Positions 3,001 to 32,300 of a DNA stretch of 64,000 nucleotides are shown here, one piece after another. Source of the DNA: Anthopleura xanthogrammica (lineage: Eukaryota; Cnidaria; Anthozoa; Actiniaria; Actiniidae); the NCBI GenBank assembly GCA_964019055.1, contig OZ025208.1:12273597-12337596 (forward strand), in the 5' to 3' direction. The notes under the pieces are model-generated. The model was not told the DNA's origin. It ran no database searches and worked only from the letters and a program-made list of their open reading frames with translations. Each line of letters starts with the position of its first letter. The stretch's first letter is position 1. Position numbers and translations under genes: made by a program.

Positions 3001-6000
3001 GAGATAAAAATACTGTATTGAATGGTAGTATGGCTTGCTCTATCCACTGATTTAAAGTGTTAAGTCTGACCATCATACACTTGCCTCACTGTGGCATATT
3101 TCCTGCATCAACACGAGTGAAAAACGTCTGAGCACATGCTCGTGGTCTGGATGCAAACTAGTTAGTCAGAAATGTCTTCGTGCCATTCTAAAATATGCAT
3201 ATTTGATTTTGAAACATCTTCACAAAATTTCAAATGCTTTAAAAAAGTAGGGGGAAAACAGTTTTGGGGTCGTTGGGTCGTTGGGTCGTATAGGGCTAAG
3301 AATAACTTTTTCATACAAGTTTCTTCGCTGTTGTTGGAAAGGAAACTGATGCTGATGCTGATGCTGAAGAGCGGGGTGCTGCTGCAAAGAAGACTGACGT
3401 TGATGCTGGAGAGGAGAGTGAAGTGATAAAAATGTAAATCTTATGTTTTTGTTTTTCTTCTGTCGTTGCATTTTTTGTTTTTGTTTTGCTATTTGCAAAC
3501 AAATGTTTTGTTTGTGTCATTGCTTTCCAGGGACGATAAAGGAAGATACTATGATTTTTCAAGCGACTACTTTCTTCTTGAAGTTCCACCCAATGCAGTG
3601 AAAACGCCAGTCAAAGTCAACTACAAAGTTGACCCTTGTCGTTGTCAACCGCCTATGGCAGGGATAACTACGAGTGTTAGTTATTTCTTGGAAATGGGTT
3701 CCAGTATGACTGTGGAGCTCAAAGAACCTATCACTGTGACTCTAATGGATTCTGGACCTGGAAGAGAGTATGGTTATAAAACTGCTGTAATGGCCTTCAA
3801 TCAACACAAATACGTTTGGGAAGAACTAGAAGGTATGTTATAGCATACCTAAAATAGTGCATGGGACTGCACGGCAAGAATTAGTCTTTAATATTTTTTT
3901 ATTATCAACACTTCATGTTTATCTAATAACAAATGAAGCTGGGCGCGTGCGAGTAGTGTGTGATCTCATAATGCACGCCCTCTCAATCAATAAGGAAGAG
4001 AGACAACAGTCATTATATAAATTAGAAATAAAACAGCTTTCCTTACCGTGCCCCGTTTAGTAATACAACACGCGGAGTGATAACGCACGACAGAATTGTG
4101 AGTCAGCAAAGCTTTAAACCAAACAAAGTGAGGTGACCATGCACCTCTATTAAGAATCGATGGATCCACGCTAAGTCAATTTTATGGACATGCATTTTTG
4201 ATGTGTTATTTAAGTAGTATAAGTGCTGCAATTTCTTTTATTTCATTTCTTTTGTATCAAAACTATAGAACTTAAACAAGAATCACCAGCATCCAAAACA
4301 GATTCCATTCGAGTACAGATCAGTAAGCTGACTATCTTAGCAGTTGTAACCAGACTCATCACAGATCGATTCCAAGTCACACCCAGAGGATGTGTTGTCA
4401 GGTCTTCTGTATGTGATGAGGTCACAATTGAGTTCCCTGAAGGAGCTATAGACAGGACTGTAGAAGGCACCATTAAGGTTTGTAGACTTTTCACTCTTCA
4501 AAAAAACAGTTATCAATAGTTACTGATGATTTTGCACCCTTGAATGGCAAGATTTTTTAGTTGTCTTTCTCTTGAAAATAAGATTCTTTGCTTGAACAAT
4601 ATCCATTGATTCATGTGGAAATGTTAAACAGAGGAGTTATTATTCATTATATATTTATTACAGACTAGAATATTAGAATAACGAATTACAAAAGTAAAAA
4701 AAGGAGATAACTAAAGTAAGGGTTATAGAATAGACGCGAGTGTGATAAGGGATTTATCATCGCATGTGAAGCTTAAGGTATCAGGATATGATTAAGACCC
4801 CTCTACGCGCTACCTCAAATTTCGCACGGGCTTTACAATATTTTGCCATAAAAGTATACATACGTATCCTGATACCTTAAAACTAGTTGGTAACACAGTA
4901 GTGGTAATTTCTAAAAATATCATGAATTTCACACCAACTCATCCTTGAGATTTTTTGAGGGATGATAAATCCTTTATCACACGAGTGACCATTCTATAAC
5001 CAATTTGTCGTATTACCGTTGGCAAAAATTGATAAAACCATTTCGTCTTAGACATTGAGACATCGTTAATATAAAATTTCCAAAACAAAAAACAAAAAAC
5101 ATGAACACCAACGAATTATCTCACAGTGTAATGGTTATAGTCCAGCAATATTGTGCTCGAATTGTGCATCATTTTGGTTAAAAGCACCAAACTTGGCGCG
5201 ATATGATAGCATAAAACAATCCGATTGATTAACTATGGGTCCACCTCGATTTCATTTAGGGGAATGGAAATTTGGTACACTCAGGGGGAAGGGGGAGGGC
5301 AATTTTTAAATTCTATTATACTGTATCTTATCAAATTAGCACTATTACAACTCATAACTGAGATAATAGTTCTTTGCAGATTATATACATACATACTTTA
5401 TTAAGATTTCCCATTGGGCTTTTCAAATCTAATTACAAATAAGAATAATAAAATATAGATATAAATAGATATTAACAATATAAGAATTAAGTATAGATTA
5501 TTAAATAGTTATAATATGATATGATATTTGATAAAAATATAAAGTGCTATTCGTCAAAGTTCATCTAATAATAATGTTTTAAGTCTGCTCTTAAATTGAC
5601 TGACTTGAGATTTTTAACGTTTTTATCCAGTTCGTTTCATGTCTTGCCTGCTCTATCATACACAAATGCCGGCTAGTGAATCATTCTACAATACCACATG
5701 GATATTTTTGAATAAAAAACAAAGAAATACATGGATTTTTCATATTTCGCTCTTTCAGCGCCCTCAAAAATATCATTAAGTCGAACCAAAATTTCTACGA
5801 AAATCTATTTATTCATGCGTTAAGCATAATAAAAGTATAGAGTCCCGTGCAAAATTTGCTTTGAGATTCATTGGTGTTAAGGCTTGACGAGGAAACAAAA
5901 AATTCCTCCAGCATATGATATCTAAATTTAAAGAATTACTAAAAGCATCATTCTTGAAGTCGTATCTAGATTAATATTCTCCAAAACTCTCTTTACTTTC

Positions 6001-7821
6001 GTGTGCTATAATTATAGAAATATACATACATTATATATTCATTTCCTTTTCATAACTTATTTCTTTTTTGCCTATTTCTTTTTTTACGAATACATCGTTT
6101 ACATTATGACTAAAAAATGTTGCTACTTAATATAGAGAGCTCACTGGCTCGTATAGCCACCTTTCGTTATTCCAGTTAGCTAACACCGAAAATAAAAGGC
6201 ATTGTAAATTATTTTTCAACATGTAAACTTAAGGTGTAAATAAACATATTGTCATTGCCATTGTCATTGTCAAATTTGAGGGTTTTGCCCTGTTGAAGTT
6301 CAGAACGCGTACGTGTATGGTTCCTCATGATCAATAAAATTTCGTGGGCTAAAATCGAGCGTTCAAAAGTAGGCGGTCACCTTAAAGAAATGATACATTA
6401 ACATTAAAAACGTTACATTAACATTAACATTAACATTAACATTAAAAACGTTATTTTTTGAATTTTTTTTCTTCATCAGTTGCTATTAATACCAGAGGAC
6501 GTCTCCTCTCTACTTCCTGGCATTTTGCCATGTCCAGTACTATTCGTCCATGGTCTGAAAGACTGTACGTTCAAAAAACCCGTAACGGTACGAGTGCCTC
6601 ACCCTCGTCCAGAGGAATATTCCGCTCAAGACAAACCTGTTCTATTCTGCTACAAAGTTGACAAATGGGTAGATATTACGAATGACACTGAAGTCATACT
6701 TCACAAATCTCATATAGAATTCAAGGTGCAACATTTTTGCAGGTAAAGGTTTAGTAAAAAACGTTTTTTAACTCATTTTGTTGTATGTAACCCAGAAATG
6801 GACTCAAAATCCTCGGTTGCTTCGTAGCATGAAAACAAATAACATTATAGCCGTTTTCCACCAAATTGTGCAAGTTGTTGTATCATCATTACACCCAACG
6901 AAGCCAGGGGCATGTTCCGGGAGGCTTTTGTGGTTTATGACCCATATTCCTATGTGTTTTTAATATTGGATAAGGAGGCGAGGAAATAGTGACCCTCGAC
7001 TCTGGACACGCCCCTTGAATATGGCTCTCCCATACTTAATTATTCACTAAATTACACGACGCGAGATGACCAGTTCATTGTATGTCTCATTGATCTTTCC
7101 AGATTTTGGAGTTTAGTGATCACAGCTTCAACTGCTTTTGTTACTGGAATAATGGTTTGTAAGTTGTATGAACATATAAGAAGAGAAAAACGTAAGTACT
7201 TTGATTAATTGTAAAGAAGATCATTGTTATTAGAGTGAAAAATTTGGAAATTAACAATTTTACCATAACTGCGACATTTTTCGCGCACTGATTGGTCGAG
7301 AGCCGTGGAAAATAAGAGGACATAATAATTTAATAATTTTTAATAATTAATAATGATGAATCACTCGCGCACAGAGCCAGCGCGCGCTTGAAACGGTTTT
7401 TTCTTTCAAACTTTTTCCTCATTCTTGGATCTTTTATGTGACTGCAAATAGATCAGGTTTCGCTATATTCTGTTCTCTGATAAAACACTCCTGAAGCTGT
7501 AGAACACATAAAAAGTGTTCGTGTCCTACAGCTCCAGTCGTGTTTTATCAGAGAACAGAACATAGCTAAACCTGATCTATTTAATAATTGTTATTGAAAA
7601 AAAAATTGTTGAAAGAAGAAGCTGGCTCCGTGCGCGGGCGATTCGTCATTCTATTGGTATGTCCTTTTATTTATCACGGCTCTCGACCAATCAGCACGCG
7701 AGAAATTTCACAGTTATGGCAAAACACAGTATTTACAAATTCATTATTTTAACGAACAGATGAAACTAATCCTACCCCGAGTGCACCACCTTATGAAGGT
7801 GACTCAGAAGATGAATATTAA
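1..7821 (+). CDS. NLR-like NB-ARC/TPR/ZU5 protein, copy A (5' end outside window, membrane-anchored 3' end)
   Basis: First of three tandem paralogues. Exons: <1-1239, 1769-2784, 3342-3433, 3531-3832, 4269-4477, 6480-6742, 7103-7191, 7760-7821; all joins keep frame. The first exon is cut by the window edge inside the NB-ARC domain. Visible motifs: P-loop FGDSGVGKTM (last Thr of copies B/C replaced by Met), Walker B LLILDNVE, sensor-like VILTSR, and an MHD-like YDLHALFREF near 887. Exon 2 encodes kinesin-light-chain-like TPRs, exon 3 an Asp/Glu/Ala linker, exon 4 a first ZU5-like domain, exons 5-6 a second. The ZU5b end reads HFC where B and C have HFS. There is no UPA or caspase. Instead exons 7-8 give a hydrophobic helix and a short acidic tail to a stop at 7819-7821. 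The donor after exon 5 (gtttgt, 4478) is weak. Intron 1 lacks about 270 bp present in copy B. Role as a nucleotide-binding oligomerising sensor is inferred from the family. The alternative is a decaying copy, but no frameshift or premature stop is seen. Confidence 0.83.
4721..5001. mobile_element. Miniature inverted-repeat element in copy A intron 5
   Basis: The ends are imperfect inverted repeats of about 40 bp: ggttatagaatagacgcgag at the left, and its complement ending attctataacc at the right, with a gataaatcc core in both arms. A second inner inverted pair (aaggtatcaggata / tatcctgatacctt) lies at about 4773 and 4866. No coding capacity. Class is uncertain. Confidence 0.7.
5383..5690 (-). 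mobile_element. LINE 3'-end fragment in copy A intron 5
   Basis: The stretch starts with tacatacatactttatta and shares the following aagcctttccc/gggcttttcaaa-type sequence with the start of the LINE 3' end at 49018. Read on the minus strand it is the 3' untranslated part and degenerate C-terminal coding end of a non-LTR retrotransposon. No intact ORF. Confidence 0.5.
5815..6385 (+). repeat. Dispersed repeat split by a retroposed insert in copy A intron 5
   Basis: 5815-5849 (aagcataataaaagtataga...) and 6277-6385 (ttgagggttttgcc... to the taggcggtcacc region) together match one continuous stretch at about 40126-40300. The intervening 5850-6276 is therefore an insertion. It ends in a (cattgt)n tail, as expected of a 5'-truncated LINE or SINE. 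A short (acatta)n run follows at 6402-6442. Confidence 0.55.
7103..7821 (+). other. Copy A alternative 3' end: predicted transmembrane helix plus acidic tail (two exons)
   Basis: Exon 7 (7103-7191, after tctttccag, before gtaagt) continues the frame of exon 6 and encodes about 20 mostly apolar residues starting FWSLVITAST, followed by a basic stop-transfer run (KLYEHIRREK). Exon 8 (7760-7821, after gaacag) adds a tail with PPYEGDSEDEY and a stop. This is a typical single-pass membrane anchor layout. It replaces the UPA and caspase exons at the equivalent place in copies B and C. The first residues after the junction (FW) resemble the start of UPA, so the helix may have evolved from the UPA beginning. 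Use of the exons in mRNA is inferred from splice sites and frame only. Confidence 0.65.
7257..7724. mobile_element. Fold-back element in the last intron of copy A
   Basis: Outer arms (ttttaccataactg with gattggtcgagagccgtg at the left; cacggctctcgaccaatc with cagttatggcaaaa at the right) are inverted. So is a central pair around 7461-7570 (ttctgttctctgataaaaca and its complement). The whole 468 bp would fold into a long hairpin. It separates the predicted membrane-anchor exon from the tail exon. Confidence 0.7.
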
Positions 7822-11410: not shown

Positions 11411-11432
11411 GTTTATTGCTTTAATACCTACA

Positions 11433-12603
11433 ATGGGGCGTTCCAGTTCTAAGAAGCGAAAATCTCGCTCACGATCTCCTTCGCGGTCGCCCAGCAAGCG
11501 ACATAGATCGGGTTCAAAATCCCCCGAAACAAGAAAAGAACCCTCGCATGAAAAGAACTCTAGTAACCGAGACAAAGAAAAAAACAGCTACAAACCCACT
11601 GAGCCAAATTCTGGCTAAACTAGAGACTATGGAAGGTAGAATAAAATCTCTAGAGAGCTCTCGCGAAGAGGTCAACAATGTTTACATTTCAGACGCTATG
11701 TCAGTTTACGCGGGAGAGGAAGATGATTTCCCCGAAGAGGGTTCAGAGAGCAATTCGCTTACTCCATCAGGCAATTGGCCTACAGAAACGGGCAGTTCGC
11801 CCACTAACACGGACAATTCGTCCAAAAACACGGGCAATTCGCCCAAGATACTAGACACAGACCGAAAGGAAGTGTCCACTGATTCCGATGAGAATAATTT
11901 CTTTGACCCGGAATCAACCGAATCCAGTTGGAAACCTTCGAAAGAACTGACCGCGTTCATTCAGAAAAACTTTAATAAAAAGTTAACAGCCCCTCAATTC
12001 CAAGAGATTTACGATTCATTCTCACCATCCGAGGTGCAAGAATGTTATACACCAAAGCTCGATAGGGATCTACTGAAACAAATTCCAAAGACATTGGCGC
12101 GTAAAGCAACTGAGCTCAATGATAAGGACCTAGCATTAGCACAACGCTCACTGCTAGCAACCACTGGCCCGTTATGTGGCCTTCATGATATGCTAGAAAA
12201 CAAAGACAAGATAGATTCAGCTGAAATTCTCGGCATCGTACAGAAGACTTTATGCCTTGTCGGCTCAGCATCACACATGTTGACAGTCACTCGTCGGGCT
12301 AAGATCCTTCGGGCGATAAACCCAGCCAAAGCAGGTTTAGCTGATAAACCGTTCCCAAACGCGGGTAAAAATTTGTTTGGCCCTGATTTGGCATCCATTG
12401 CCTCTAAGGAAGTAGATGTATCAAAGAGCCTGGCTAAAGATTTCAAAAGACCCGGTCCTCCAGCCAGATTCAATAGAAATCAAACAAACAATGAATATTC
12501 AAACACTAGATATGGCAATCGCTACAACAATAACAGGCCAAATTTTTTGTCAACAAAGTACCAATCAAACCGTGGCCGGGGCCGGGGCTATTTTCGCCCC
12601 TAA
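11433..12603 (+). CDS. DIRS ORF1, gag-like protein with RS-rich N-terminus (frameshifted or programmed shift)
   Basis: The ATG at 11433 opens a frame rich in Arg-Ser repeats (RSRSPSRSPSKRHRSGS) that stops at 11618. From about 11548 the next forward frame is open to a stop at 12603. It encodes an acidic Ser/Thr/Asn-rich region with repeated GNSP-type units, a helical core, and a basic Arg/Gly/Asn-rich C-terminus (RYGNRYNNNR, RGRGRGYFRP) suited to nucleic-acid binding. The two frames overlap over the A-rich run near 11573-11585, so they were probably one ORF broken by an indel; a programmed shift is possible. No zinc knuckle seen. The position upstream of RT is the evidence for a gag-like role. 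Confidence 0.65.
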
Positions 12604-12674
12604 AGGAAACCCTTCCTCAGGCTGCCAGGCTAAAGTATTTTATACACGTTTGGGAGAATTTAACAAAGGACCAG

Positions 12675-14621
12675 TTGGTTTTAAACATCGTAAAGGGCCT
12701 AGAAATCCCGTTCCTAGAGCGCCCAACTCAAACGAAACCGATGTTCACTCAACCGGAACCTCAAAACAAGTTGTTATTTGTTCAAGAAATTCAGGATCTC
12801 CTAAGGAAAGGAGCAATCCGAAACGTTGCGTTCTCTTCTCAGAGCTTTTACAGCCGAATGTTCCTAGTTCCGAAGAAAGGGGGCTCATATCGGCCCGTAG
12901 TAGACTTAAGTCATTTAAACGCGTATATCTACAACGAACACTTCCAAATGGAAGGCCTACATCTGTTAAAATCAGTTCTACGAAAAGGGGACTTTATGAC
13001 AAAAATAGATCTCAAGGATGCGTACTTAACTGTCCCAATCCATCCAAATTATCAGAAGTTCCTCAGTTTTATCATGGAAAATCAAGCCTTCCAGTTTTGT
13101 TCCCTACCGTTCGGGCTAAATATAGCTCCAAGAATTTTCACAAAACTAATGAAACCAGTTATAGCATTCCTAAGATGCCAAGGCACGCGAATGATCGTGT
13201 ATCTAGACGATATACTGTTAGCGGCCCAAACCAGGGAGGAATCCAAGTATCGAACATCCCAAACAATAAATCTGTTGGAGTCTCTAGGCTTCATAGTAAA
13301 TTACGAAAAGTCTCAGCTGATACCAGGCCAACGTCTGGAATTCCTGGGGTTTATCATAGATTCAGAAAACATGACCATAAGTCTGCCCCGAAACAAACAA
13401 AAGAAAATCCGAGATTTATGCAAAAAAGCGGGACAGAACACCGAAATAACAGTTCGCAGCATCGCCCAAATTTTAGGGGTACTAGAAGCCACTCTCCCAG
13501 CCTTACGAGCAGCTCCGCTTCATTTTCGTCAGCTCCAACAACTACAAGTATCGGCACTTCGCCAGTCGAAGTCGTACACCAATTTAATAACGCTGACAGA
13601 AAATGCAAAACGAGATCTAGACTGGTGGGTACAAAATATATACACAGTCCCAGAGGGACCCATCAACCCACCAGAGCCAACAACAACAATTTACACAGAT
13701 GCCTCCAAGGCAGGTTGGGGAGCCACAAACAACAAATGGTCAACGGGCGGTTCGTGGTCCGCAGAAGAAGCCAAATTGCACATAAACGTACTAGAATTGC
13801 GAGCAGGAATCCTAGGTCTCAAAACATTCTTAAAAGATCAACATTCAATTGTGGTTCGTCTGTACCTAGACAACACTACTGCAGTTGCGTACATAAACCA
13901 CTTAGGAGGAACTCGCTCCCAAGCTCTATTGAAGGAGGCTCTAAAACTATGGGAGTGGTGCTCACGGCACGAAATCTTCCCCATGGCTCAGCATTTACCA
14001 GGAAAAGAAAACATCCTGGCGGACTCAGAGTCAAGGAGGTCCGAAGACACCAGCGACTGGCAATTAAACCCTTTGATAGTCCGCCCTTTCCTGAAAGACA
14101 GACAGGTAGATCTCTTCGCCTCACGGCTAACAACACAACTGCCAGTATATGCGAGTTGGAGGCCAGACCCCATGGCAAAATACACAGACGCCTTTACAAT
14201 GAACTGGGGAGAAATAAAAGGATATGCATTTCCCCCATTCAATCTCGTATCTCGAGTGCTGCAGAAAGTACTGCAGGATCAGGCAGAGATAGTTCTAGTA
14301 ACACCGGTTTGGAAAACACAACCTTGGTGGCCCATTCTCCTAGAAATGTCGATTCAGCAGCCAGTCCTTCTAGGGAACGACAAAACACTATTGATCAACC
14401 CGAGAGACCCTTCGAGGTCACACCCACTGTTCCCCAGGCTTCATCTAGCCGTCTGGTTAATATCAAGCAACGTTACGAAGCAGAGGGACTTTCAGAAGAC
14501 GTTGCCAATCTTCTTGCAGCATCCACTACGTCAAGCACCCAAAAATGCTATCAATCAGCATGGAACACTTGGAGAAGCTGGTGCATTCAGAGACAGATTG
14601 ATCCACTTTGTGCACCCCTAA
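12675..14621 (+). CDS. DIRS reverse transcriptase / RNase H
   Basis: A 648-residue ORF that copies element RNA into DNA. RT motifs in order: VPKKGGSYRPVVDLSHLN, KIDLKDAYLTVPIHP, LPFGLNIAPRIFTK, and the catalytic YLDD at about 13199-13210 within MIVYLDDILLAA. RNase H follows: IYTDASKAGWGA near 13690, an ELRA segment, and LDNTTAVAYINHLGG. The tail has DLFASRLTTQLPVYASW, a segment typical of DIRS-group polymerases. The true start may be slightly upstream, since the frame overlaps the preceding ORF. Its 3' part overlaps the recombinase ORF in another frame. Confidence 0.9.
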   Translation: MVLNIVKGLEIPFLERPTQTKPMFTQPEPQNKLLFVQEIQDLLRKGAIRNVAFSSQSFYSRMFLVPKKGGSYRPVVDLSHLNAYIYNEHFQMEGLHLLKSVLRKGDFMTKIDLKDAYLTVPIHPNYQKFLSFIMENQAFQFCSLPFGLNIAPRIFTKLMKPVIAFLRCQGTRMIVYLDDILLAAQTREESKYRTSQTINLLESLGFIVNYEKSQLIPGQRLEFLGFIIDSENMTISLPRNKQKKIRDLCKKAGQNTEITVRSIAQILGVLEATLPALRAAPLHFRQLQQLQVSALRQSKSYTNLITLTENAKRDLDWWVQNIYTVPEGPINPPEPTTTIYTDASKAGWGATNNKWSTGGSWSAEEAKLHINVLELRAGILGLKTFLKDQHSIVVRLYLDNTTAVAYINHLGGTRSQALLKEALKLWEWCSRHEIFPMAQHLPGKENILADSESRRSEDTSDWQLNPLIVRPFLKDRQVDLFASRLTTQLPVYASWRPDPMAKYTDAFTMNWGEIKGYAFPPFNLVSRVLQKVLQDQAEIVLVTPVWKTQPWWPILLEMSIQQPVLLGNDKTLLINPRDPSRSHPLFPRLHLAVWLISSNVTKQRDFQKTLPIFLQHPLRQAPKNAINQHGTLGEAGAFRDRLIHFVHP

Positions 14622-15445
14622 AGAGCATCCTCTCTTTCCTAACAGTTCAATTCCATACAGGAAAGCAATATCGTACAATCAATGTACTACGCTCAGCTAT
14701 CTCATCAGTACACCCACGTATAGATGGTCACCCAGTGGGACAACACCCCTATGTGTGTCAATTAGTTAGAGGTATTGCGGTCAAACGCCCACCTCAACCA
14801 CGCTACTCTGCGACCTGGGATGTAAGTAAAGTTACATCACTACTTTATTCGTTGGGTTCTAACGCAAAGCTGAACCTGAAGACATTGACTCTCAAGCTTA
14901 CCATGCTTTTGGCTCTAGTAGCACCGGAAAGGGTGTCCACGCTAGCACGACTAGATTTACGTTTCGTACATTTGCGTCCAGAGGGATTTACTTTCACCTT
15001 GACAACCCCAAGGAAAAGAGGAAAACCAACTGTTGCCGGGAAAGTTAATATCGCTAAGTACACAGGCAACAAACGCCTTTGTCCTCTAGAGTGTTTGACC
15101 ACATATCTTAAGGCAACACGAGAAATCCGTCAGGCATCGTCCGCCCCCCAACTGCCAGACCTTCTCCTCCGCTCCTTTAAAAAGCCCCATAAGTCAGTGG
15201 GCCCAGCCACGATATCACGTTGGCTACGTGAAGTCATCAAGATGAGCGGTATTGACAGCTCGATCTTTAAAGGACACTCAACTCGAGGTGCCTCCACGTC
15301 TTCGGCTGCTTCAGGTGGAATAAATACAGCATCAATAATGGAAATGGCAGATTGGTCTACACCATCCACATTCAGATCATTTTATTACAAACCAGTTATT
15401 AACACTGAATATGCTTCGGCAGTCTTATCAACCAGTGATAATTAG
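14390..15445 (+). CDS. DIRS tyrosine recombinase (C-terminal functional part of a longer open frame)
   Basis: The frame is open from 12416 to the stop at 15443-15445, but recognisable protein begins near 14390. It has a SAM-like N-terminal core-binding region (YQSAWNTWRSWCIQ), first catalytic Arg in APERVSTLARLDL (about 14929), the H-x-x-R box in KGHSTRGAST (His near 15274), a W in MADWSTPSTFRSF, and the nucleophile Tyr in FYYKP near 15385. It would integrate the circular DNA intermediate. The real start is unclear. The 12416-14390 part lies antiphase over RT and has low-complexity Ser/Arg/Thr content, so it is probably a shadow. Confidence 0.88.
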   Translation: MDQPERPFEVTPTVPQASSSRLVNIKQRYEAEGLSEDVANLLAASTTSSTQKCYQSAWNTWRSWCIQRQIDPLCAPLKSILSFLTVQFHTGKQYRTINVLRSAISSVHPRIDGHPVGQHPYVCQLVRGIAVKRPPQPRYSATWDVSKVTSLLYSLGSNAKLNLKTLTLKLTMLLALVAPERVSTLARLDLRFVHLRPEGFTFTLTTPRKRGKPTVAGKVNIAKYTGNKRLCPLECLTTYLKATREIRQASSAPQLPDLLLRSFKKPHKSVGPATISRWLREVIKMSGIDSSIFKGHSTRGASTSSAASGGINTASIMEMADWSTPSTFRSFYYKPVINTEYASAVLSTSDN

Positions 15446-18264: not shown

Positions 18265-21200
18265 ATGACAGAGGTTGTCGCTGTTCCTGCATCATTGGAC
18301 TCGCTTTTAGGTCAAATTTCCATAAAGTTTAATCAAGCCGAAGCAGCAGATGTCATCCATGAACTGAAAAGACTTTATCCAACAAGAGACTCTTTCGATC
18401 AAAATTACTTATATGGCGCCTTGAAACAACTATATGTACTGGGCGCGATTGATGATGAGGGAGATCAGAAACTATTGGAAATCTTGGTTAAGAAAACATC
18501 GAAGAAGGACGAAATTTTGAATTCAATAAGTGGCTACAAGAAAGCTTCTTCGTCACGCAAAGATGATTTTGTCGGTAGGGATGTTGATGTGGATAACATT
18601 CTAAAGCGTGTGACGAATCCTCGTGTACCTGGAATAAACTTGTTCGGAGACTCAGGTGTGGGAAAGACAACGTTAGCAAAAGAAACTTCTAAAAAAATGG
18701 AGAAAGACTTTGTACCGTTCGTCATTGATCTGAGAGGTACAAAAGATACAAACACTGTCTATTTCCAAGTACTCAAGACGTTCAAGCTAACACCATGGGA
18801 CTACAGCAAGGAAAGAATCTACACGCATCTTCAAGATTTAACAACTAAAACCCTCTTAATTCTTGATAATGTTGAACAATTCCTTGCAAGTAAGAATGAA
18901 GTTGATGAAAAGAGAAGAAAAGAATTTTTGGAATTTCTTAGAACCATTATGAGTTCTGAAGCAAGTCAAACAGGAAGCTTGAAGGTGATTCTTACCTCGA
19001 GAATACAAATAAAGGACGCCGTGTTGAAGTATATAAATTTCAGTGAATACAAACTCAAGCCTTTAGCCAAGGAAGCTTCCAGACAGTTGATGAGTTGGAG
19101 ACTAAAAGATGAAACTGATGTTGAGCAGGATAAAGCACTGATTCAAGTTGCTGATCTTTGCCGTAATACACCCTACCTACTGGAAAGGGCAGAGCAATTG
19201 CTGCGACAAAATTACTCCAAACCTTCAGAGGTGCTGGAGAAATTGAATACCTTGAAAAATATGGGAGTATCAGAACAATTTGCTTGTATCAGTGCATTGT
19301 TTGATTCTCTACCAAGTGATCACCTGAAACAAGTTGCTGTAAAGATTTCTTTACTCCAACGGCCTTTCTCTGTGTCCACTGCAATGAAAATTGCTGAACT
19401 CTCAGCTCATGATGCAGAGCTTGACCTTGAACTGTTAGCAGTCCAAAAAATCATCACAGCAGAGGATGTGAATGGAAAGAGGAAGTATGACCTCCATGCA
19501 CTGTTCAGAGAGTTTGTTACTTCGTATCTGTGTAAAGATCATGTCTACAAAGATGCTCACGAGAAAGCAGAAAACCAGTTCGCTGAGCACTTTTCTAAGA
19601 GATTTATTCAGCTTTCAAAGAATTTAGATAAAGACTTTGTTGGTACATACAAAGAGCTTGAAGAAGACAAAACCAATCTAGAATTATCAATTGACCTCAT
19701 AACCCGGAAGGAAACTCTTGACTTAATTCTCCAATCTGATGATGTTAAGGAGACAGGAAGCGTAGCTATACTGTTTGAGGCATTCAAAAGTGTTAAAGAG
19801 AGAAGAAAGCTTTTTGGTGAATGGGCAAAGATTGTGGAAAAGAAAGGTAAGAATACATTATCCTCGTTTTGATTTATTTTATGAGCGTGCGTGATATACT
19901 GAAATTGTTGCTCGCAGTTTTAGTTTATTTTGCCGGTATCGTTCGTCTTGTTTGCTTGTTTTATTTGTTGGTTATATTTTATTGTTGCTTTTAGCATTTT
20001 TGCATTTGGTTTACTAGTTATCAATGAGGGTTTATCAGGTCTTGCGTGACATTTTAAATTTTAATCCAACAAAAAAGAAAATATGAAATTTGAAAAGAGC
20101 ATAGTAAAATTAGTAAAATTGGAAAGTTTGAAGTGGTTTTATTGAGTAGCGCCGAAGATATGGGTGACCGAAGTTGGCTGCCTTTACAAAGAAATGTATG
20201 GAAAAATATGTTGGGAGGCAAGCTGTTCGTCCTTTGGGTCGGTTCGCAGGTACGATTCAGTTTGGACTCCACATGTGAATACACTTTTTGTTGAATGTGT
20301 TCTCCTCAACAAGTGTTTTATCTCAGGTTCTCCGGTTATCCTTCTTCCGACCAACAGCATTTGAGTTGAGAGTTGTGTGTATTAACCTCTGGCTTTGGAT
20401 AAGTCGGCAACGAATCCTTTTATCACGACATGAATTAGGAAAAAACTATATTGTCCAATCATTTCAATGTCGTATTTTGGATTGCCCCCCCCCCCCCCCC
20501 CCCGAAACCCCGAAACCGTCAAATAACCGCTGAAAGTCAGTGAACAATATTGTATCCTATGCAATAAAAATTATTTTAACTTTTTAACAAGTTAATAAAC
20601 TATTTTATTTTTCTCACAGGAGGCTGGTTATCCAGTGCTAATTTTAGATGTTGGGAGTCTATCCAGTTGGCTGACATGGAGGGAACACAAAGTGCTTGTG
20701 AAGCACTAAAAAGAGCTGAAATGTCGCTTGCAAAAGCCATGTTAATATCAACGCCTGAGCAGGTGAATGCTGCAAAAGGATTGTGCAAGTACTGCAGTGG
20801 TCAAATAAAACGCATGACCAGTGAAAACCTGATAGACGAATCGAGTAAAATAGAAAAGGAGCGGCTTCTCGAACAAGCACTTTTTGATTTAAAACATTCA
20901 CTAGCCATACACAGAAATGTATACGGTGATCATACTCTTACTGCAAGGACATTAAATCACATTGGAAATTGCTACATGGAATATGGTGAGCCAAAAAAGG
21001 CAGAGAAATTTTACAAAGAAGCCAAGAAAATGAAGATCAAACTTGTTGGCAGTGAGAAGCATTTCGATGTACCAACATATTATAATCAGCTATCACAGGT
21101 CTATGAGGCACTTGGCAAGGGCGAAACGTCATCAGAGACGTCTTGGAGTTTTCAAAGCTTTGCCAACCGCATTTGGAGTTTGATTTCTCAAGAAAAAAGA

Positions 21201-24200
21201 CAGAATTACGACAAGGCCGTTGATTACCTGAAGAAAGCACTAAGTCTGCAAAAGGAACTGGGAGTAAATGACACAGTCGATACAGCTACTTTCCAAAGGA
21301 ACCTTGCAAATATTCTTATCGGGCTTGGAGAGTATGACCAGGCCCTCGAGTACGCTCAGAAATCCTTTGAAATAAGAAATGCGCACCTTGGTGAACATCC
21401 AGAGACCGTGAGGATTCTTTACCTGATTGGAATCATTCATGAATGGAGAACAGATCCTGAAGAAGCTTTACAGAGTTATGAAAAAGCCTTTGTAATGGAG
21501 GAGTCTTTATCTGAAGACAACCATAGTATTGTGAGAAAACTACTGTGTGAAAGACTTGAAGAAATGTGTAAGAAACTGAAGAAGAAAGACAAACTGAAAG
21601 AGTATGGACCAAGAATGGAACAAATTCGAAAGGTAAGGAAATGTTCTTTGTTCAGTTATAAAATAATCGATCATGATAGTCAATAGAGAGACTCAAACTC
21701 CTCCAAACAAAACGGAAGATCCTGAACCAAAGGGATCCCACGGACTGCCTATACTATATTGAATGGTAGTATGCTCTATCCACTGATTTAAGATGTTAAG
21801 CCTGATAATACACTTGCCTCACTGTGGCATATTTCCAGCATCAACACGAGTGAGGGGGAAACGTCTGATCACATGCTCGTGGTGTAGATGCAAATTATAG
21901 TCAAAAAGTTCTTCATGCATGATATTCTAAAATATGGATATATGACTTTCAAACCTCTTATCAAAATTTCAATACTTTTAAAATGTGGAGGGGGAGCAGT
22001 TTTGGGATCGTAGAGCTAAGCCTATCTTTTAATATACAAGTTTCTTTATTATTGCTGGAAAGGAGACTGGTGCTGATGTTGAAAAGGAGACTGGTGCTGA
22101 TGTTGAAAAGGAGACTGGTGCTGATGCTGGAAAGGAGGCTGATGCTGATGCTGGAGAGGGGACTGACATGATAAAACTGTAAGTTTTATGTTTTCGTTTT
22201 CCTTCTGTCGTGTTGCCTTTTTTTCGTTATTAGCAAACAAATGTTTTGTATGTCATTGCTTTCCAGGGACGATAAAGGAGGATACTATGATTTCGCAAGC
22301 GACTACTTTCTTCTTGAAGTTCCACCCAATGCAGTGAAGACGCCAGTCAAAGTCAAGTACAAAGTTGACCCTTGTCTTTGTCAACCGCCTATGGCAGGGA
22401 TAACTACATGTGTAAGTTATTTCTTGGAAATGAGTTCCAGTATGACTGTACAAAATGTGGAACTCAATAAACCTATCACTATGTCTCTAATGCATTCTGG
22501 ACCTGGAAAAGACTATGGTTATAAAACTTCTGTAATGGCCTTCAATCAACACAAATACGTTTGGGAAGAACTAGAAGGTATATCATAAATGTATTTGTTA
22601 TATTTATTTGTATATCATAACATACCTACAACAACAGAGCTCTACCAATAGTGTTCATCTGTTACACACGGCACGGTACACTTCGCCGGCCACTGCATTA
22701 TTAGCTCCTTTGATTTTGTACTCCTCAGCCTAATCTATATTCTATGAAGAAACAGAAAGCATGCGCGTGTAGCTAGTGCTCTCATAATGCACGCTCGTTT
22801 ATCCAGTCAGAAAAGGAGACACAACAGCCATTTTAGAAACAGAAAATGAAACAGCTTTGCCGGTGCCCCAATGAGTGATACTTCACACAGAAAGTGATTT
22901 AACCCTATTCAGACCGGGCCTTTTCGGCGGCCTGGGAGAAAAGAAGTAGTGTAGTGGATTTAATGTTTGATCAAAATAATCACGCTAAAATGGCAAATTT
23001 GATTACTTCTCTTTTGTTCTATCAAAACTACATAGGACTTGCATTTGAACAAGTATCACGAGTCTCGAACCTTGGACGATGCAAAACAGATTTCATTCAA
23101 GTACGCATCAGTAAACTGACTATCTTAGCAGTCGTGACCAGACTCATCACAGATCGATTCCAAGTCACACCCAAAGGTTGTAGTGTCAGGTCTTCTGTAT
23201 GGGAGGATGTCACAGTTGAGTTTCCTGAAGGAGCTGTTGAGAAGACCGTAAAAGGAACCATGAAAGTAAGAAACATTTCCAATAAATAAAGACGTTCTAC
23301 GTATGTTCAGAATCGATGCAATAATGATAGAGCACAGGAGAGAACAACACTCTCAAACAAACTCAACTCACACATGATCTAGCCCGAGCCGGGGCTTTAA
23401 CCCGGAGCACAGTGGTAAGAAGCGAGCGGTAAACCACTATACGCCACGCATGCCCCCTTTTATGTCAAATTTAGTGACCTCGAGACATCCCTTTTTCCTT
23501 TCCAGATTTGAAATCAGCATTAAATTTGAGTTTAAGAAACTTAGATTCAAAAACTTTTTAATGGATTTTCTCAATAGTAGACAGCCACCTTAATCTAATC
23601 GGTTCTTTCAAGTGACGATAGCATTCAGTCAGGCCGAACTGAACATGTTTTGCAAATTAAAATATGTCGTCTTAATCTTAAACATTTTATTCCCTAGCTG
23701 TTACTAATGGCACAGAAGAAGTACCTTGAAAACGATGAGTATGGATATCCGTGCCCAATACTATTGGTGGATGGCTTTGAAAGTATTAATCTCCAAAAAC
23801 CCGTCACCATCACGATGCCACACCCTTGTCCAGCGAAGTATCCTATGAAGAAAGCAAATTTGATGCGTCTTCCAAACGAACCTGAGAAAATTCTTGAAAA
23901 TAAGTGGGAAGACATTACGGACCAGATAATTTATAAAGAGATAAAGAAGGATCAGGAATATTTTGTAGAGCTTCAAGTACAGCATTTTTCATGGTAACGT
24001 ATTGAGCTTGTATGACTACTCTAAAAATGCCAATAGTAAACATCCACAGCAATTCTCCATATATATGCATGCGCCTTGCAATGCGTTTGCAAGGGAGACA
24101 GCCCATTAATAAGAACTGGATTAATTTCTACATTACCACTGTCAGCTTTTATCAAAAAGTCGGTCTTTACGTATCTGTATGCTTTTCTTGTTTTGTTTTC

Positions 24201-27158
24201 AAAGTTCTATTTTTTTTACTTCTAAGGGAGTGGCTTTGGTTGTCATTCGTACCAATGAAGATGCTGAAAAATGTTTTCCAAGATTTAATTTCTTCGCCTC
24301 CCATATTTGTTCGCGTTGGACTTTTCAAAGAGAAAGATGATCAACGACGCCCTGTTAGTATGTTGGAGGCTTTCAAAGTGATCTTAACATGTGTTGTTGC
24401 TAACCATGATGACGGACACATGAAAGAGATGAAAGGTAAACAATATAATCAAAGTACAAACTCTCCAAAATCTTTATTTTTGAGCGCGCGCAAGTCATCT
24501 GGTTTTCTGCCTGCCTGCTCGCCTATTTTTTTCCAACAATCCTTCTGCATATCTCTCTCCTCTCGGCCTCCATGCATGCAGACCATTGTAGATCATTTAA
24601 GTCATAATTCGCCGAACTGAACCAATTTTCAAATCAGTCCTTTTTAATGTAATATGCATGTATTACGTACTTCTGAGTCTATCCGGCCTATGGCTTATGT
24701 AAGAGTGCCATGTTCATAAACAGTCTATAATTCTGTCTACTAGCCGTAAATGTATCTTCTTTTTTTTATCTTTCTCTTAATTTAAGAAACTTACGAACAG
24801 CTGGCTATTGCAACCTCGAGAAAACCAGTGCGACCAGGTGACGAAGCCGTCGTAAAGGTAGAAGGAGACTTTGAGGAAAAAGGCAAAAGAAACGAGGAGG
24901 AAAAACCCACTCTTGTGTAAGTGAAAGTTTTACAGGAATTAAGGCGAAACTTGGTTACGTAGTATTGGACTGCGCGAAAATTTAATTTTACAAAATCTTT
25001 AATTTTTGAAGTAGGCCATTCAAATAGTATAGTTAATACCACGTTACTTAATAGCACGTTATATAGACCATGTTATATAGACACCATGCCCGACTGCTAT
25101 TCTTTGTAAGTATTCACCACTTTCCATACATCGGTTCACTGGTCAAACACAAAGCATTCAATCGAGGCTGCAAGGTTCAAATTTGAATAATCCTTTGAAA
25201 TTACCTTGAAGCCTCGATTAAATGCTTTGTGTGTGACCAGTCAACCAATGTATGGAAAATAGTGAACAGTTCCCTTGCAGCACTTCGGAATGCAGCTCAA
25301 TTTGGAGGATAAAGCAATAGACCTCATCAACTTGGGTGTAATGTTGTCCCATTTCAGACCACGTGTCATTCCCCAGAGTATCATTTCATTGTTTAACGGT
25401 TGCGCATGAGAAGATACATGAATATGGATACAACTCAAACAAAGAATCTTATTCTCAAGAGAATGACACGTGGTCTGAAATGGGACAACATTACACCCAA
25501 GCCGATGAGGTCTATAGGCTCAAATACTCAGCAGATTCTTTTGTTTTGTCCTCCAAATTGAGCAGCTTTGACGTCACGTGAAATACATGGGTCTATATTC
25601 TTGTATATCATTAAATCATCTCCCGTGGGATTATGTTGCCATTTGAGTAGACCTCTTTAGCTAAGACGTAATGTTTTCCTATTTCAGACCACGTGTCATT
25701 CCATAGGGTATCACTTCGCATGAGAAGACATGGATAAAACTATAAGCTTATTCTCAAGAGAATGACACGTGTTCGGAAATGGGAACACCTATTGGCGCTT
25801 TTATTCCAGATGTTAGAATAAATGATTGGATTTTATAAATCATATAAATTTAATTTTAATTAATATATAAATTAGATTTTATAAATTTTGGCAATAAATC
25901 TAAGGTATTTGTTTATGTAAACAATGGAGCGCAGTACATTTTAGTTGACTAGGATTCTAATAAGTAATTTCAAATTTTCCTATAGATTTGTAAAAGACGG
26001 AAAGCCGTTTGGCGAAGCAGAGCTAAATGTCTGTCGAAAGAAAGATGACATTCAGAACGAAAACGACAGGAATAGAGAACTCATTATCTCACTTTACAAA
26101 GAAATGGACGAGCTTCAGTTTTTGTGCAAACTTTCCACTTGTGAAACAAGAGGCATTGAGGTATACCTGAAATAAATGAACAATATATAATCATGATTAT
26201 TTCTTTCCATCCTTTTTTTCTTTCTTCCTTATTTGCTTGCTTCCTTACTTTTTCCCGAATGGTTCCTTAATTACTTGTTTATTTGCTTGCTTGTTTAATT
26301 TCGTCCACCCATCCATCCATCCTCTTCCTTTCATCCTTGTTAGTTTGTCTCTTTCAATGTTTCCATTCATGACCATGTGTTTACTTGTTTTCATTTCAGG
26401 AGACCTTATGTCATCATAGAGTGTATAAGATGCGCAGAACGTCTCCCAGAGGTTATTTCGTAATCGTCAATGTCAACAAGTTTGACTCATCAACCGGTTT
26501 TCAGGAACGTACGGGCTCTGACCAAGATGTGCAAAACCTAGAATCTGTATTCAAAGATTTACTAGGTTTTGAAGTTAAACTTCTATGTGATGATCCAAAT
26601 GCTCAAGCGATTCTAGACAATATTTACGATATTTCCGAAAGGGATTTCTCCAATCACGATTGTTTTGGTTTATGTGTCATGAGTCATGGTAATGACAACT
26701 GTTTTTACGGTTCAGACGGAGAAAGAATTACATGGTCTACGATCCTTAGCTTGTTTTATAAAAACATGGGTCCTAGTCTTAAGGACAAGCCAAAATTGTT
26801 TTTTCTCCAAGCATGTCGGTTTGCTGCTAAAATTAAACACGAAATAGGGGCTGAACAGCAACCATCCCCTCCAATCACCTACTTGACTTCTGTCGTCCAA
26901 GATACACTAGTAGTACATAGCTGTTTTCAAGGTCATGAATCATTTCGTGATGAACAGGATGGGACTTTTTTTATTCAAAGTCTCGTAAAAGTATTAAAAG
27001 AAAATGTAAACAACGAGGACATGTCGAGTATGGTAACCATGGTTACTGACGAGTTAGCCACCCAATTGGGACCAAAGCAAGTGCCGCAAACGCTTAGCAC
27101 ATTAAGAAAAAAGCTTTACTTCAAACCAGAAATGAAGTTTCGACATTTTTATACATGA
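18265..27158 (+). CDS. NLR-type NB-ARC/TPR/ZU5-ZU5-UPA/caspase protein, copy B (complete, 1606 aa)
   Basis: Exons: 18265-19846, 20620-21632, 22063-22178, 22267-22577, 23036-23265, 23698-23993, 24227-24435, 24787-24916, 25986-26160, 26400-27158; the total is a multiple of three with no internal stop. Domains: residues 5-90 death-fold, DED-like; NB-ARC about 110-430 with P-loop GDSGVGKT (128-135), Walker B LLILDNVE (about 196-203), VILTSR, and MHD-like YDLHALFREF (about 408); TPRs about 560-850; Asp/Glu linker 866-904; ZU5a 905-1007; ZU5b 1008-1181; HFSW at 1180-1183; UPA 1182-1354; caspase 1355-1606. NB-ARC proteins switch by nucleotide exchange and oligomerise. ZU5-UPA in PIDD and NLRP1 self-cleaves before Ser of HFS/FS. 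A sensor that clusters and releases a UPA-caspase fragment in the cytoplasm is therefore inferred. An in-frame TAA immediately upstream fixes the ATG. Exons 1-2 are closest to copy A, caspase exon closest to copy C. Confidence 0.9.
22063..22178 (+). repeat. In-frame 24-bp coding repeat in the linker exon of copy B
   Basis: Three imperfect copies of gagactggtgctgatgttgaaaag-type units encode ETGADVEK repeated in register, followed by DADAGEGTD. Copies A and C have only DADA-type remnants in the same exon. The linker joins the TPR array to ZU5a, and its Asp residues are potential caspase sites (inference). Confidence 0.8.
23370..23460 (-). repeat. tRNA-derived SINE-like fragment in copy B intron 5
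   Basis: On the minus strand it reads ggcgtatagtggtttaccgc, like a tRNA A-box region, then ccgggttaaagcc, like a B-box. Flanking sequence does not form a full tRNA cloverleaf, so this is a SINE head rather than a functional tRNA. Confidence 0.45.
23983..23993 (+). other. Candidate autoproteolysis site HF|SW, copy B
   Basis: Codons cat ttt tca tg(g) encode H1180 F1181 S1182 W1183 at the end of ZU5b, with the Trp split by the intron. Human PIDD and the NLRP1/CARD8 FIIND cleave themselves before Ser in an HFS/FS motif at the same ZU5-UPA boundary; the following WLWL resembles the PIDD UPA start. Activity is inferred. Confidence 0.7.
25115..25265. mobile_element. Fold-back element in copy B intron 8
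   Basis: Arms ttccatacatcggttcactg and its near complement (cagtcaaccaatgtatggaa) and aagcattcaatcgaggct / agcctcgattaaatgctt enclose a short loop. Confidence 0.7.
25266..25800. mobile_element. Palindromic MITE-like elements in copy B intron 8
   Basis: 25266-25580 is a long palindrome with arms gtcccatttcagaccacgtg / cacgtggtctgaaatgggac and tgcagctcaatttggagga / tcctccaaattgagcagc. A second partial inverted pair (atttcagaccacgtgtcatt / aatgacacgtgttcggaaat) follows at 25680-25785. The end block tcctccaaattgagc also occurs at 35008-35115 and 53660-53770, so this is a dispersed family. Confidence 0.65.
26400..27158 (+). other. Caspase exon of copy B
   Basis: Single exon holding both subunits. 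p20: PRGYFVIVNVNKF start, catalytic His1450 in VMSHGND, catalytic Cys1493 in LQACRFAA, where the usual QACRG Gly is Phe. p10: DTLVVHSCFQGHESFR (Arg of the S1-pocket SxR motif present) and DGTFFIQSLVKVL. The His-Cys spacing of 43 is normal. The inter-subunit linker (AAKIKHEIGAEQQPSPPITY) has no Asp, unlike copy C. Confidence 0.88.
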
Positions 27159-29376: not shown

Positions 29377-32300
29377 ATGGCAGAGGTTGACGTCTTTCCA
29401 GCATCATTCAAATCACTTTTAGGTCAAATTTCCATAAAGTTTGATCAAGCCGAAGCAGCAGATGTCGTCCATGAACTGAGAAGACTCTATCCAAACAGAA
29501 AAGATTCCTTCGATAAAACTGACTTATGTGGAGCCTTGCAACAACTCTATGAACTGGGAGCGATTGATGATGATGGAGATCAGAAATTATTGCAAATATT
29601 GACCGGGAAAACATCGAAGAACAAAGAAATTGTGAAATTACTTACTGCATACAAAGAAGCTTCTTCGTCACGCACAGATGATTTTGTCGGTAGGGATGTT
29701 GATGTGGATAACATTCTAAAGCTTGTAACGATGGAAAATGGTCGCGTACCTGGAGTAAACTTGTTCGGAGACTCAGGAGTGGGAAAGACGACTTTGGCCA
29801 AAGAAGTTTCTAAAAAGTTAGAGAAAGACTTTGTACCGTTCATCATTGATCTGAGAGGTACAAAAGATACAAACACTGTCTATTTCCAAGTACTCGAGAC
29901 GTTTGAGCTAACACCATGGGACTACAGCAAGGAAAGAATCTACACGCATCTTCAAAATTTAACAACTAAAACCCTCTTAATTCTTGATAATGTTGAACAG
30001 TTCCTTGCAAGTAAGAATGAAGTTGATGAAAAGAGAAGAAAAGAATTTTTGGAATTTCTTAGAACCATGATGAGTTCTGAAGCAAGTCAGAGAGGAAGCT
30101 TGAGGGTGATTCTTACCTCGAGAATACAAATAAAGGACGTCATGTTGGAGGATATACGGTTCAAAGAATATGAACTTAAGCCGTTAGCCAAGGAAGCTTC
30201 CAGACAGTTGATGAGTTGGAGACTAAAAGATAAAACTGATGTTGAGCAGGATAAAGCACTGATTCAAGTTGCTGATCTTTGCCGTAATACACCCTACCTA
30301 CTTAAAGGAGTAGAGCAATTACTGCGGCAAAATTACTCAAAACCTTCGGAGGTGCTGCATAAAGTGAATTCCTTGAAAAATAAGGGAGTACCAGAACGAT
30401 TCGCTTCTATCAGTGCATTGTTTGATTCTCTACCAAACGATCACCTGAAACAAGTTGCTGTGAAGATTTCCTTTCTCCGTCGTCCTTTCTCTGTGTCCAC
30501 TGCAATGAAAATTGCTGAGATCTCCTCAGATTATGATGCAGAGCTTGAGCTTGAAATGTTAGCAATACACAAAATCATCACAGCAGAAGACGTGACGGAA
30601 AAGAAATCAAACGAATCGAAGAGGAAGTATGACCTCCATGCACTGTTCAGAGAGTTTGTTACTTCGTATCTGTGTAAAGATCCTGTCTACAAAGATGGGT
30701 ACGAGAAAGCAGAAAACCAGTTCGCTGAGCACTTTTCCAAGAAATTTAGCCAACTTGGAAAGAATTTAGATAAAGATTTTGTTGGTACATACAAAGAGCT
30801 TGAAGAAGACAAAGCCAATCTAGAATTATCAATTGACCTTACAACCCGGAAGGAAATGCTTGACTTAATTCTCCAATCTAATGATGTTAAGGAGACAGGA
30901 AGCGTAGCTATACTGTTTGAGGCATTCAAGAGTGTTAAAGAGATAAGAAAGCTTTTTGGTGAATGGGCAAAGATTGTGGAAAAGCAAGGTATACATCATC
31001 CTTATTTTGATCTATTGTATGAGCGTGCGTGATATACTGGCTATAGCTCTATCGCCCTGCCTGGTTAGAACTCGGATTAAGCCAGTTTTAGGGCAGGGCG
31101 ATAGAGGTATAACTCAAAGGTCAGCTAAGATTTCTTTACTTTATTTCACATTTTGACGATTTTATTGAGGTTTTTTATAGATCCCCATACATTTTCTTAT
31201 AATATGACACCACAGAAACCCAGCTTGGGCTACCTGTGGTGATATGTGGCTTCATTTCATTGCCGTATTTTGTATCTCACTCTTCCCTCAAAAAAAACAA
31301 AAAAAAACAAAATGAACGGTAAGGTATGCAATAAAAATTATCAAAAATTATTAAAAATTATTAAGCTATCTTTTTCCCCACAGGAAGCTGGTTATACAGT
31401 GCTAATTTTAGATGTTGGGAGTCTATCCAGTTGGCTGACATGGAGGGAACAAAAAGGGCTTGTGAGGCACTGAAAAGAGCTAAAATGTCGCTTGCAAAAG
31501 CCATGTTAATATCAACGCCTGAGGAGGTGAAGACTGTAAAAGGATTATGCAAGTACTGCAGTGGACGAATAAAGTGCATGACCAGTGCAAACCTTATTGA
31601 TAAATCGAGTAAAATAGAAAAGGAGCGGCTTCTCGCACAAGCACTTCTTGATTTAAATGAGTCACTTGCCATACACAAGGAGGTCTACGGTGATCATACT
31701 CTTACTGCAAGGACATTAAATCTCATTGGAAATTGCTACATGGAATGTGGTAAGCCAAAAGAGGCATTGACGTTTTACCAGCGAGCCATGGACATGAAGA
31801 TCAAACTCGTTGGCAGTGAGAAACATTTCGATATACCAACATATTATAATCAGCTGTCACAGGTCTATGAAGCACTTGGTAAGGAAGAAACGACTCCTCA
31901 ACGAAATTACGAGAAGGCCGCGGAAAACATAAAGAAAGCATTACGTCTGCAAGAGGAACTCGGAGTAAACGACACGGTCAACACAGCTACTTTTCAAAGG
32001 AATTTTGCAAATATTCTTATCGGACTTGAAAAAAATGACGAAGCCCTCGAATATGCCCAGAAATCCTTCAAGATAAGAAACGCACACCTTGGTAAACACC
32101 CAGAGACTGTGAGGATTTTGTACCTGATTGGGGCCATTCATGAACATAAAGGAAACAGTGAAGCAGCTCTACGAAGTTATGAAGAAGCTTTTGTAATGGA
32201 GGAGTCTTTACCTGAAGACAACCACAGTGTTGTGAGAAAACGACTTTGTAATAAAATTAAAGGATTGTGTCTGGACCTGGACGAGAAAGAGAAACTAGAA

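Follow-up and report, generated by a model that had tools for sequence, protein, structure and literature searches.

In vertebrates, self-cleavage of a ZU5-UPA module yields a fragment that recruits a caspase via a death-fold domain. The available text of PMC11637483 describes two cuts in PIDD, at S446 and S588, the latter between ZU5b and UPA; in the cell lines tested, death was caused by PIDD-CC, acting via RAIDD and caspase-2, and not by PIDD-C. The cut motif takes the form HF/S (the slash marking the bond) in PIDD and Nup98, and the form SF/S in CARD8 and NLRP1, where the Phe is believed to lie buried and to put the bond under strain (PMC3210808, in the sections available). According to the same sections, His-270 and Glu-279 matter in CARD8, and changing the His of the Nup98 HFS affected cleavage just slightly; in rat NLRP1 a His has been suggested to be catalytic (PMC8081665, available part). 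Given the slight effect in Nup98, a conserved His alone does not show that a protein is cleaved. In CARD8, the UPA lowers the concentration required for filaments from 15 to 0.25 uM (PMC7794386, available text).

We examined how a locus of the sea anemone Anthopleura xanthogrammica compares with these systems. The window, that is, the whole stretch of DNA analysed, is 64,000 nucleotides long and is part of contig C3 of the 290 Mb genome that was searched. An earlier note on this DNA had described a self-cleaving NLR fused directly to a caspase in two copies, B and C. In our spliced models, whose splice sites were picked by hand from reading of the sequence and copy-to-copy comparison, copy B spans 18265-27158 (1606 residues) and copy C 29377-37814 (1588 aa), both on the + strand. 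Both models comprise ten exons with GT-AG borders, zero internal stops and exon phases that match between the copies. The possibility that B and C are fragments of separate genes was dropped, as the exon phases argue otherwise. The domain order in both is STAND/NACHT ATPase, TPRs, ZU5a, ZU5b, UPA, caspase, and the ZU5-UPA-caspase architecture described earlier is confirmed at the level of these gene models: the order ZU5b, HF/S, UPA and then the caspase itself is seen in two open copies. The interval initially assigned to the fusion in copy B, 23698-27158, holds exons 6-10 only, copy B beginning at 18265.

Exon 1 of copy B (18265-19846, donor AGAAAG/gtaaga) is an open frame encoding residues 1-100, which gave no Pfam match above cut-off, and a STAND/NACHT-type ATPase (residues 101-527; Pfam AAA_22, E 2.5e-9; NACHT, E 6.5e-7, 29.8 bits against a cut-off of 26.7). 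Exon 2 (20620-21632, GT-AG, fitting phases) encodes TPR repeats (residues 528-865; Pfam TPR_12, E 4.6e-29). The NLR label therefore suits the NACHT ATPase, which scores over cut-off, but less so the sensor repeats, which are TPRs; the 25 Pfam families shown (of 32) for copy B include no LRR. An acidic repeat linker follows in exon 3 (22063-22178), an open frame in fitting phase with a shorter counterpart in copy C. Exon 4 (22267-22577) carries the first part of ZU5a, a domain that Pfam did not recognise in copy B and that was assigned by alignment with P0001, a protein of Actinia, and by the phases. Exon 5 (23036-23265) carries the end of ZU5a and the start of ZU5b in a block strongly conserved relative to P0001; the single Pfam ZU5 match in copy B (residues 1049-1131, E 4.5e-8) is the second ZU5. 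At the start of ZU5b (23134-23265, residues 1041-1084) conservation relative to P0001 rises sharply, the remainder being 35% identical overall. The second part of ZU5b, in exon 6 (23698-23993, donor TTCATG/gtaacg), ends in QHF/S(W). The three parts of UPA lie in exon 7 (24227-24435), assigned by a family profile that matches ankyrin ZU5-UPA across the junction, and in exons 8 (24787-24916) and 9 (25986-26160), assigned by phases and paralogs. Exon 10 (26400-27158) encodes the caspase domain.

Copy C was found to match copy B as had been claimed, with HFS at residues 1152-1154, the same domain order and an open frame. Its exons 1-5 (29377-30988, 31384-32333, 32559-32638, 32728-33029 and 33686-33909) and 6-10 (34497-34792, 35169-35374, 35675-35804, 36063-36228 and 37014-37814) have phases as in B; exon 6 ends in QHF/S(W), at Ser1154, and exon 10 encodes the caspase. 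Point estimates of Ka/Ks between B and C are 0.46 overall (1564 codons), 0.49 for the caspase exon and 0.45 for UPA. The two ZU5b parts, with few substitutions, give 0.69-0.71 and are less constrained than the other domains, and the point estimate for the 27-codon linker is 1.29. Elsewhere in the window, ORFs between copies A and B at 11425-15445 resemble those of a retroelement, with sequence like that of a reverse transcriptase and of a tyrosine recombinase (DIRS-like by eye), and ORFs resembling helicase pieces (ZNFX1-like by eye) lie at 48431-58670.

The predicted cleavage site lies at the ZU5b/UPA junction in both copies. In copy B, HFS occupies residues 1180-1182 and the predicted scissile bond is F1181/S1182, the Ser codon being 23989-23991. 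The Trp codon past the Ser is split by the intron (TG/G, 23993/24227 in copy B), and the spliced reading is HFS-WEWLWLSF in B and HFS-WLWLWGSF in C. The earlier note had HFSW continue as WLWL; HFS is indeed present in both copies, but B reads HFSWEWLWL once spliced, so that the rest was a slight misreading. Its position of the Ser, 1182, and its UPA-caspase fragment of 425 residues are exact for copy B, for which we predict 49.1 kDa; a cut before the Ser of copy C would yield 435 residues and 50.5 kDa. The motif had been likened to those of PIDD and of NLRP1/CARD8 alike. It is the PIDD form, whereas NLRP1 and CARD8 use SF/S (PMC3210808, in the sections available).

The HFS tripeptide alone is weak evidence, as each protein holds two (0.09 expected per protein by composition), and the other one in B, at residues 442-444, lies in the STAND exon. 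Its fixed place carries more weight. A genome search with copy B exon 6 gave at least 16 matches (E <= 1) covering 79-98 query positions; among the 16 ZU5b exons found, 14 end in HFS and two in HFC (copy A and L018), the query having itself ended in HFS, which favours matches ending likewise. In all 16 a GT donor lies two bases past the Ser/Cys codon. Together with the 14/14 ZU5b-UPA sequences that carry HFS (see below), the HF[SC] end of 16/16 ZU5b exons is what gives the position its value. A chance tripeptide was considered and dropped; the argument rests on position, since HFS also occurs at B residue 442. A second site comparable to PIDD S446 is not predicted in B, because HF[STC] occurs only at 442-444 and 1180-1182.

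Whether the sequence past the junction is a UPA was assessed with an alignment (A3) of 14 rows; in 13 of them the ZU5b exons of one of the 16 genes were joined to its UPA exons, and the remaining row is P0001. B and C were taken from the gene models and 11 loci from a UPA exon search; copy A, the gene containing L018 (L032) and L035 were excluded, as no UPA exon was found there. Some of the UPA exon matches included are weak (L036/C18, E 0.4 and 0.2; L037, E 0.06 and 7), and for 4 of these 11 loci the script did not detect a third UPA exon. In A3, H, F and S are invariant in 14/14 at a mean column identity of 50%, and the third and fifth columns past HFS are almost always Trp. Pfam ZU5 matched 11 of the 14 members (E <= 1). 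Pfam includes a UPA model, which gave zero matches in copy B or in any member of A3 or of a UPA-only alignment, A5 (11 of the 14 rows); the A5 profile likewise gave zero PDB matches up to E 10. The A3 profile, searched against PDB, matched ankyrin-2 (4d8o, E 1e-15, positions 14-222), running through the junction, and also passed through it in ankyrin-3 and ankyrin-1 (7tw3, positions 16-301); the alignment pairs HFS with VSA of the ankyrins. NLRP1, CARD8 and UNC5 chains were not among its matches up to E 10. Ankyrin served as the ZU5-UPA comparison, the set of compared sequences holding no PIDD ZU5-UPA. A profile of ZU5b alone scored 48.9, 43.4, 37.4 and 28.8 bits for 4d8o, 6m3q, 6m3p and 7tw3, respectively, and one of ZU5b plus UPA 61.1, 55.3, 50.5 and 41.0 bits, a gain of 11.9-13.1 bits in four ankyrin chains. 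With 3ud1, a 326-residue ankyrin-1 construct in which the match ends near the C-terminus, the score went from 34.1 to 31.3 bits, down 2.8. Because adding the UPA part raises the scores of four ankyrin chains, this part resembles the ankyrin UPA, and sequence comparison indicates that ZU5 is followed directly by UPA in this family. Predicted folds were of low confidence (mean pLDDT 31.8 for P0001 run without an alignment and 38.8 for the STAND exon when run with three sequences from the window). In prokaryote genomes, relatives were confirmed by the A3 profile for 0 of 90 pattern matches.

The caspase domain of copy B spans residues 1372-1594 (Pfam Peptidase_C14, E 2.9e-43), and its nearest solved structures among the best 60 of 202 are caspase-7 and caspase-8, at E about 1e-28 (9.5e-29 for caspase-7 with exon 10). 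The catalytic residues, as aligned with caspase-7, are His1450 (SHG) and Cys1493 (QACRF), with Arg1391 and Arg1537 for the S1 pocket; those of copy C are His1418 and Cys1461 (QACRR). The pentapeptide departs from QACxG, reading QACRF in B and QACRR in C and in P0002. P0002 is a database caspase of 256 aa from short contigs, identical to C at 243/256 positions and to B at 205/256; as it starts inside the caspase exon, it is no evidence for the splicing. No Asp lies between the active Cys1493 and Asp1522 in B, so that ordinary two-chain maturation is unlikely there, and a dimerisation-driven enzyme would suit B better than one needing chain cutting. Copy C has three Asp residues past the active site (1470, 1476 and 1482). 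In view of these pentapeptides and the missing Asp of B, the label of executioner given to these caspases is no more than a presumption. On a tree of 11 caspases, B and C share a long branch (1.34).

We then considered the other ZU5b genes of this genome. Four of the 16 have a same-strand caspase exon downstream: B, C, a gene on another contig (C18, 2096-2105 kb) and, less surely, one at C3:12350-12364 kb (D12). The C18 gene, with open frame and fitting phases that differ from those of B and C, probably has the same domain order with a canonical caspase: ZU5b-HFS-UPA-caspase, a predicted fragment of 428 residues and the caspase motifs SHG, QACRG and SFR. Its UPA exon matches are the weak ones given above (E 0.4 and 0.2), its third UPA exon was located by eye, and RWTVSP directly past HFS makes the Trp pattern looser. 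The D12 gene is a possible further UPA-caspase fusion. Its UPA and caspase come into phase only across an intron of 8.65 kb, in which lie a retroelement that looks BEL/Pao-like by eye and a sequence weakly matching (E 0.03) the linker of P0001; the caspase reads QGCRG and lacks a match to [ST][WFY]R. In two genes, copy A and L032, the putative payload is a TM-like exon, recognised by eye and by mutual likeness, and in four (L025, L026, L028 and L033) it consists of pieces like the P0001 C-terminus, assigned by match and not by splice join. For the other six (L027, L029, L030, L034, L035 and L037), no payload was assigned among the matches listed for the 9.9 kb examined.

Copy A (3-7821, + strand, beginning outside the window) encodes STAND, TPR, ZU5a (3532-3831) and ZU5b (4271-4477 and 6480-6742) with an HFC end, followed by an exon with a TM-like stretch (7103-7191) and, at 7760-7821, by an acidic tail; the exon borders and the TM-like stretch were placed by eye. 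Copy A and L032 are neighbouring paralogs in which ZU5b is followed by HFC and a TM-like stretch, and UPA and caspase matches are absent downstream of the HFC-ending ZU5b in both. At the other end of the window, stretches at 61868-62095, 62479-62559 and 63273-63467 are 67-78% identical to the C-terminus of P0001 and probably form the terminal part of a related gene. A neighbouring STAND-TPR gene, L038 (C3:12264700-12269500), has a TPR exon followed by an in-phase caspase exon, a ZU5 match being absent between them; it may be broken, as the TPR runs in two frames and a TGA lies inside the caspase match. With four rows labelled as fused and P0002 treated as unfused, the tree of 11 caspases requires three changes, a number matched in 229 of 500 shuffles, and a one-change grouping occurred in 0% of 200 bootstrap trees; D18, C6 and C21 sit on long branches. 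The idea that the fused caspases have a single origin was dropped, the four rows not forming one group; there may have been several fusions, or losses.

From the domain order and the invariant HF/S, we think it reasonably likely that the proteins of B and C are autoproteolytic ZU5-UPA death sensors, each made of a single chain, their action being modelled on PIDD, NLRP1 and CARD8. On folding, ZU5b-UPA would put strain on the bond between F1181 and S1182. This bond would be attacked by the hydroxyl of the Ser and the chain cut, the halves remaining together. The STAND-TPR part would then sense an input and loosen ZU5b, or the N-terminal half might be degraded as in NLRP1 and CARD8. The freed UPA-caspase would self-associate via UPA, pairing two caspase domains and switching them on. 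UPA would thereby take the role of the death-fold domain of PIDD and of its adaptor, with the caspase as a payload in cis. The earlier interpretation is, as a whole, partly supported.

The cleavage of B and C is itself a prediction, and the proteins could instead stay uncut, HFS being kept for some other reason and the caspase being activated in cis by oligomerisation of the STAND ATPase, as in an apoptosome. The STAND-TPR part needed for this is present in B, and in L038 a STAND-TPR part may run in phase into a caspase, a ZU5 match being absent from the interval. However, H, F and S are invariant in 14/14, whereas VSA stands at this place in the ankyrins, in which the fold is retained, and L038 may be non-functional; we consider an uncut protein rather unlikely. 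It is distinctly improbable that the gene models are in part an artefact, the caspase exon belonging to another transcript or isoforms swapping their ends, such that no single sensor-caspase chain exists. The joins of B and C do come from sequence-derived models with hand-picked splice sites, P0001, the sole database relative with ZU5-UPA, ends Death-like, and two paralogs run on into a TM-like stretch. Against this, UPA and caspase are joined in phase in B and C, as they are, by different phases, in the C18 gene; these three share the order, and neither ten-exon model has an in-frame stop.

A different question is whether the caspases of B and C are competent proteases. They might be weak or regulatory, like cFLIP, and be released to modulate other caspases, as QACRF and QACRR in place of QACRG, the lack of an Asp between Cys1493 and Asp1522 in B and the long B/C branch could suggest. 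Yet the His, the Cys, the Arg residues of S1 and the Gln before Ala-Cys are kept, and the caspase exon has a Ka/Ks of 0.49. Moreover, Drosophila Dredd is active despite a non-Gly residue at the end of its pentapeptide. We therefore hold a regulatory role to be unlikely, and retain the self-cleaving sensor with an active caspase as the preferred reading.

If it is correct, it would show how exon shuffling can combine sensor, autoprotease and effector in an animal lineage that branched early. Because the donor lies two bases past the Ser/Cys codon in 16/16 ZU5b exons, payloads (UPA-caspase, UPA-Death or a TM anchor) could be swapped by exon shuffling. We tentatively suggest, short of holding it probable, a modular family of cut-and-release receptors, with a self-cleaving ZU5b cassette and shuffled payloads, in which the UPA-caspase form would unite sensor, autoprotease and death protease in one chain, free of an adaptor and of a separate caspase. 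Should UPA alone be able to activate an attached caspase, it would be the activator itself, and UPA-caspase a minimal two-domain death switch. The C3 and C18 genes offer natural replicates for this, and the TM- and Death-ended paralogs natural controls.

Searches of protein databases (4155, 5597 and 342 candidates), which may hold few animals, returned only P0001 and P0002 as relatives. P0001 (LOC116293177, Actinia tenebrosa) is 35% identical to copy B (155/438) over ZU5a-ZU5b-UPA and has HFS at the junction, but its C-terminus is Death-like (E 7.7e-4, below the Pfam cut-off) where B and C have a caspase, and its three Pfam matches include none of the NACHT, TPR and caspase domains present in B. 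Chains that unite a sensor with a caspase, as B and C do, are known from the TNFR-caspase and LRR-caspase proteins of amphioxus (PMC2575513), and CASc is named in a figure legend on sponge NLR architectures (PMC12909245); a ZU5-UPA joint is not described for these hybrids in the available text of either paper. In that of PMC8195603, ZU5/FIIND autoproteolysis is predicted for animal immune proteins, but with TRADD-N as fusion partner, the ZU5-UPA-caspase order not being described there. Nor was this order found in the literature text available, figures and supplements aside, including PMC7586219, PMC2246300 and PMC4715348, and likewise PMC11508797, PMC3482391 and PMC5094078. In the accessible portion of the last, NLRs of actiniarians are described as carrying several TM domains at the N-terminus, as against the C-terminal TM-like stretch of copy A.

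Among the well-studied systems, PIDD1 (LRR-ZU5-ZU5-UPA-Death) resembles B and C in its tandem ZU5 followed by UPA (PMC11637483) and in its HFS motif (PMC3210808), as far as the available sections describe them, but PIDD has LRRs and a Death domain dependent on RAIDD and caspase-2, whereas B and C have STAND-TPR in front and the caspase behind. NLRP1 and CARD8, whose FIIND (ZU5-UPA) is followed by a CARD, share self-cleavage and UPA-driven assembly, and NLRP1 also an NLR sensor (PMC3210808 and PMC7794386, available parts); they differ from B and C in their SF/S motif and CARD payload, and the A3 profile did not reach them. Working without an adaptor, as had been proposed for B, fits a caspase that follows UPA in the chain but would not be unique, as CARD8-CT recruits caspase-1 directly (PMC7794386, available text). 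We read B and C, from their sequences, as a variant of the PIDD/NLRP1 ZU5-UPA platform that carries its caspase in cis, in an order that appears to be new.
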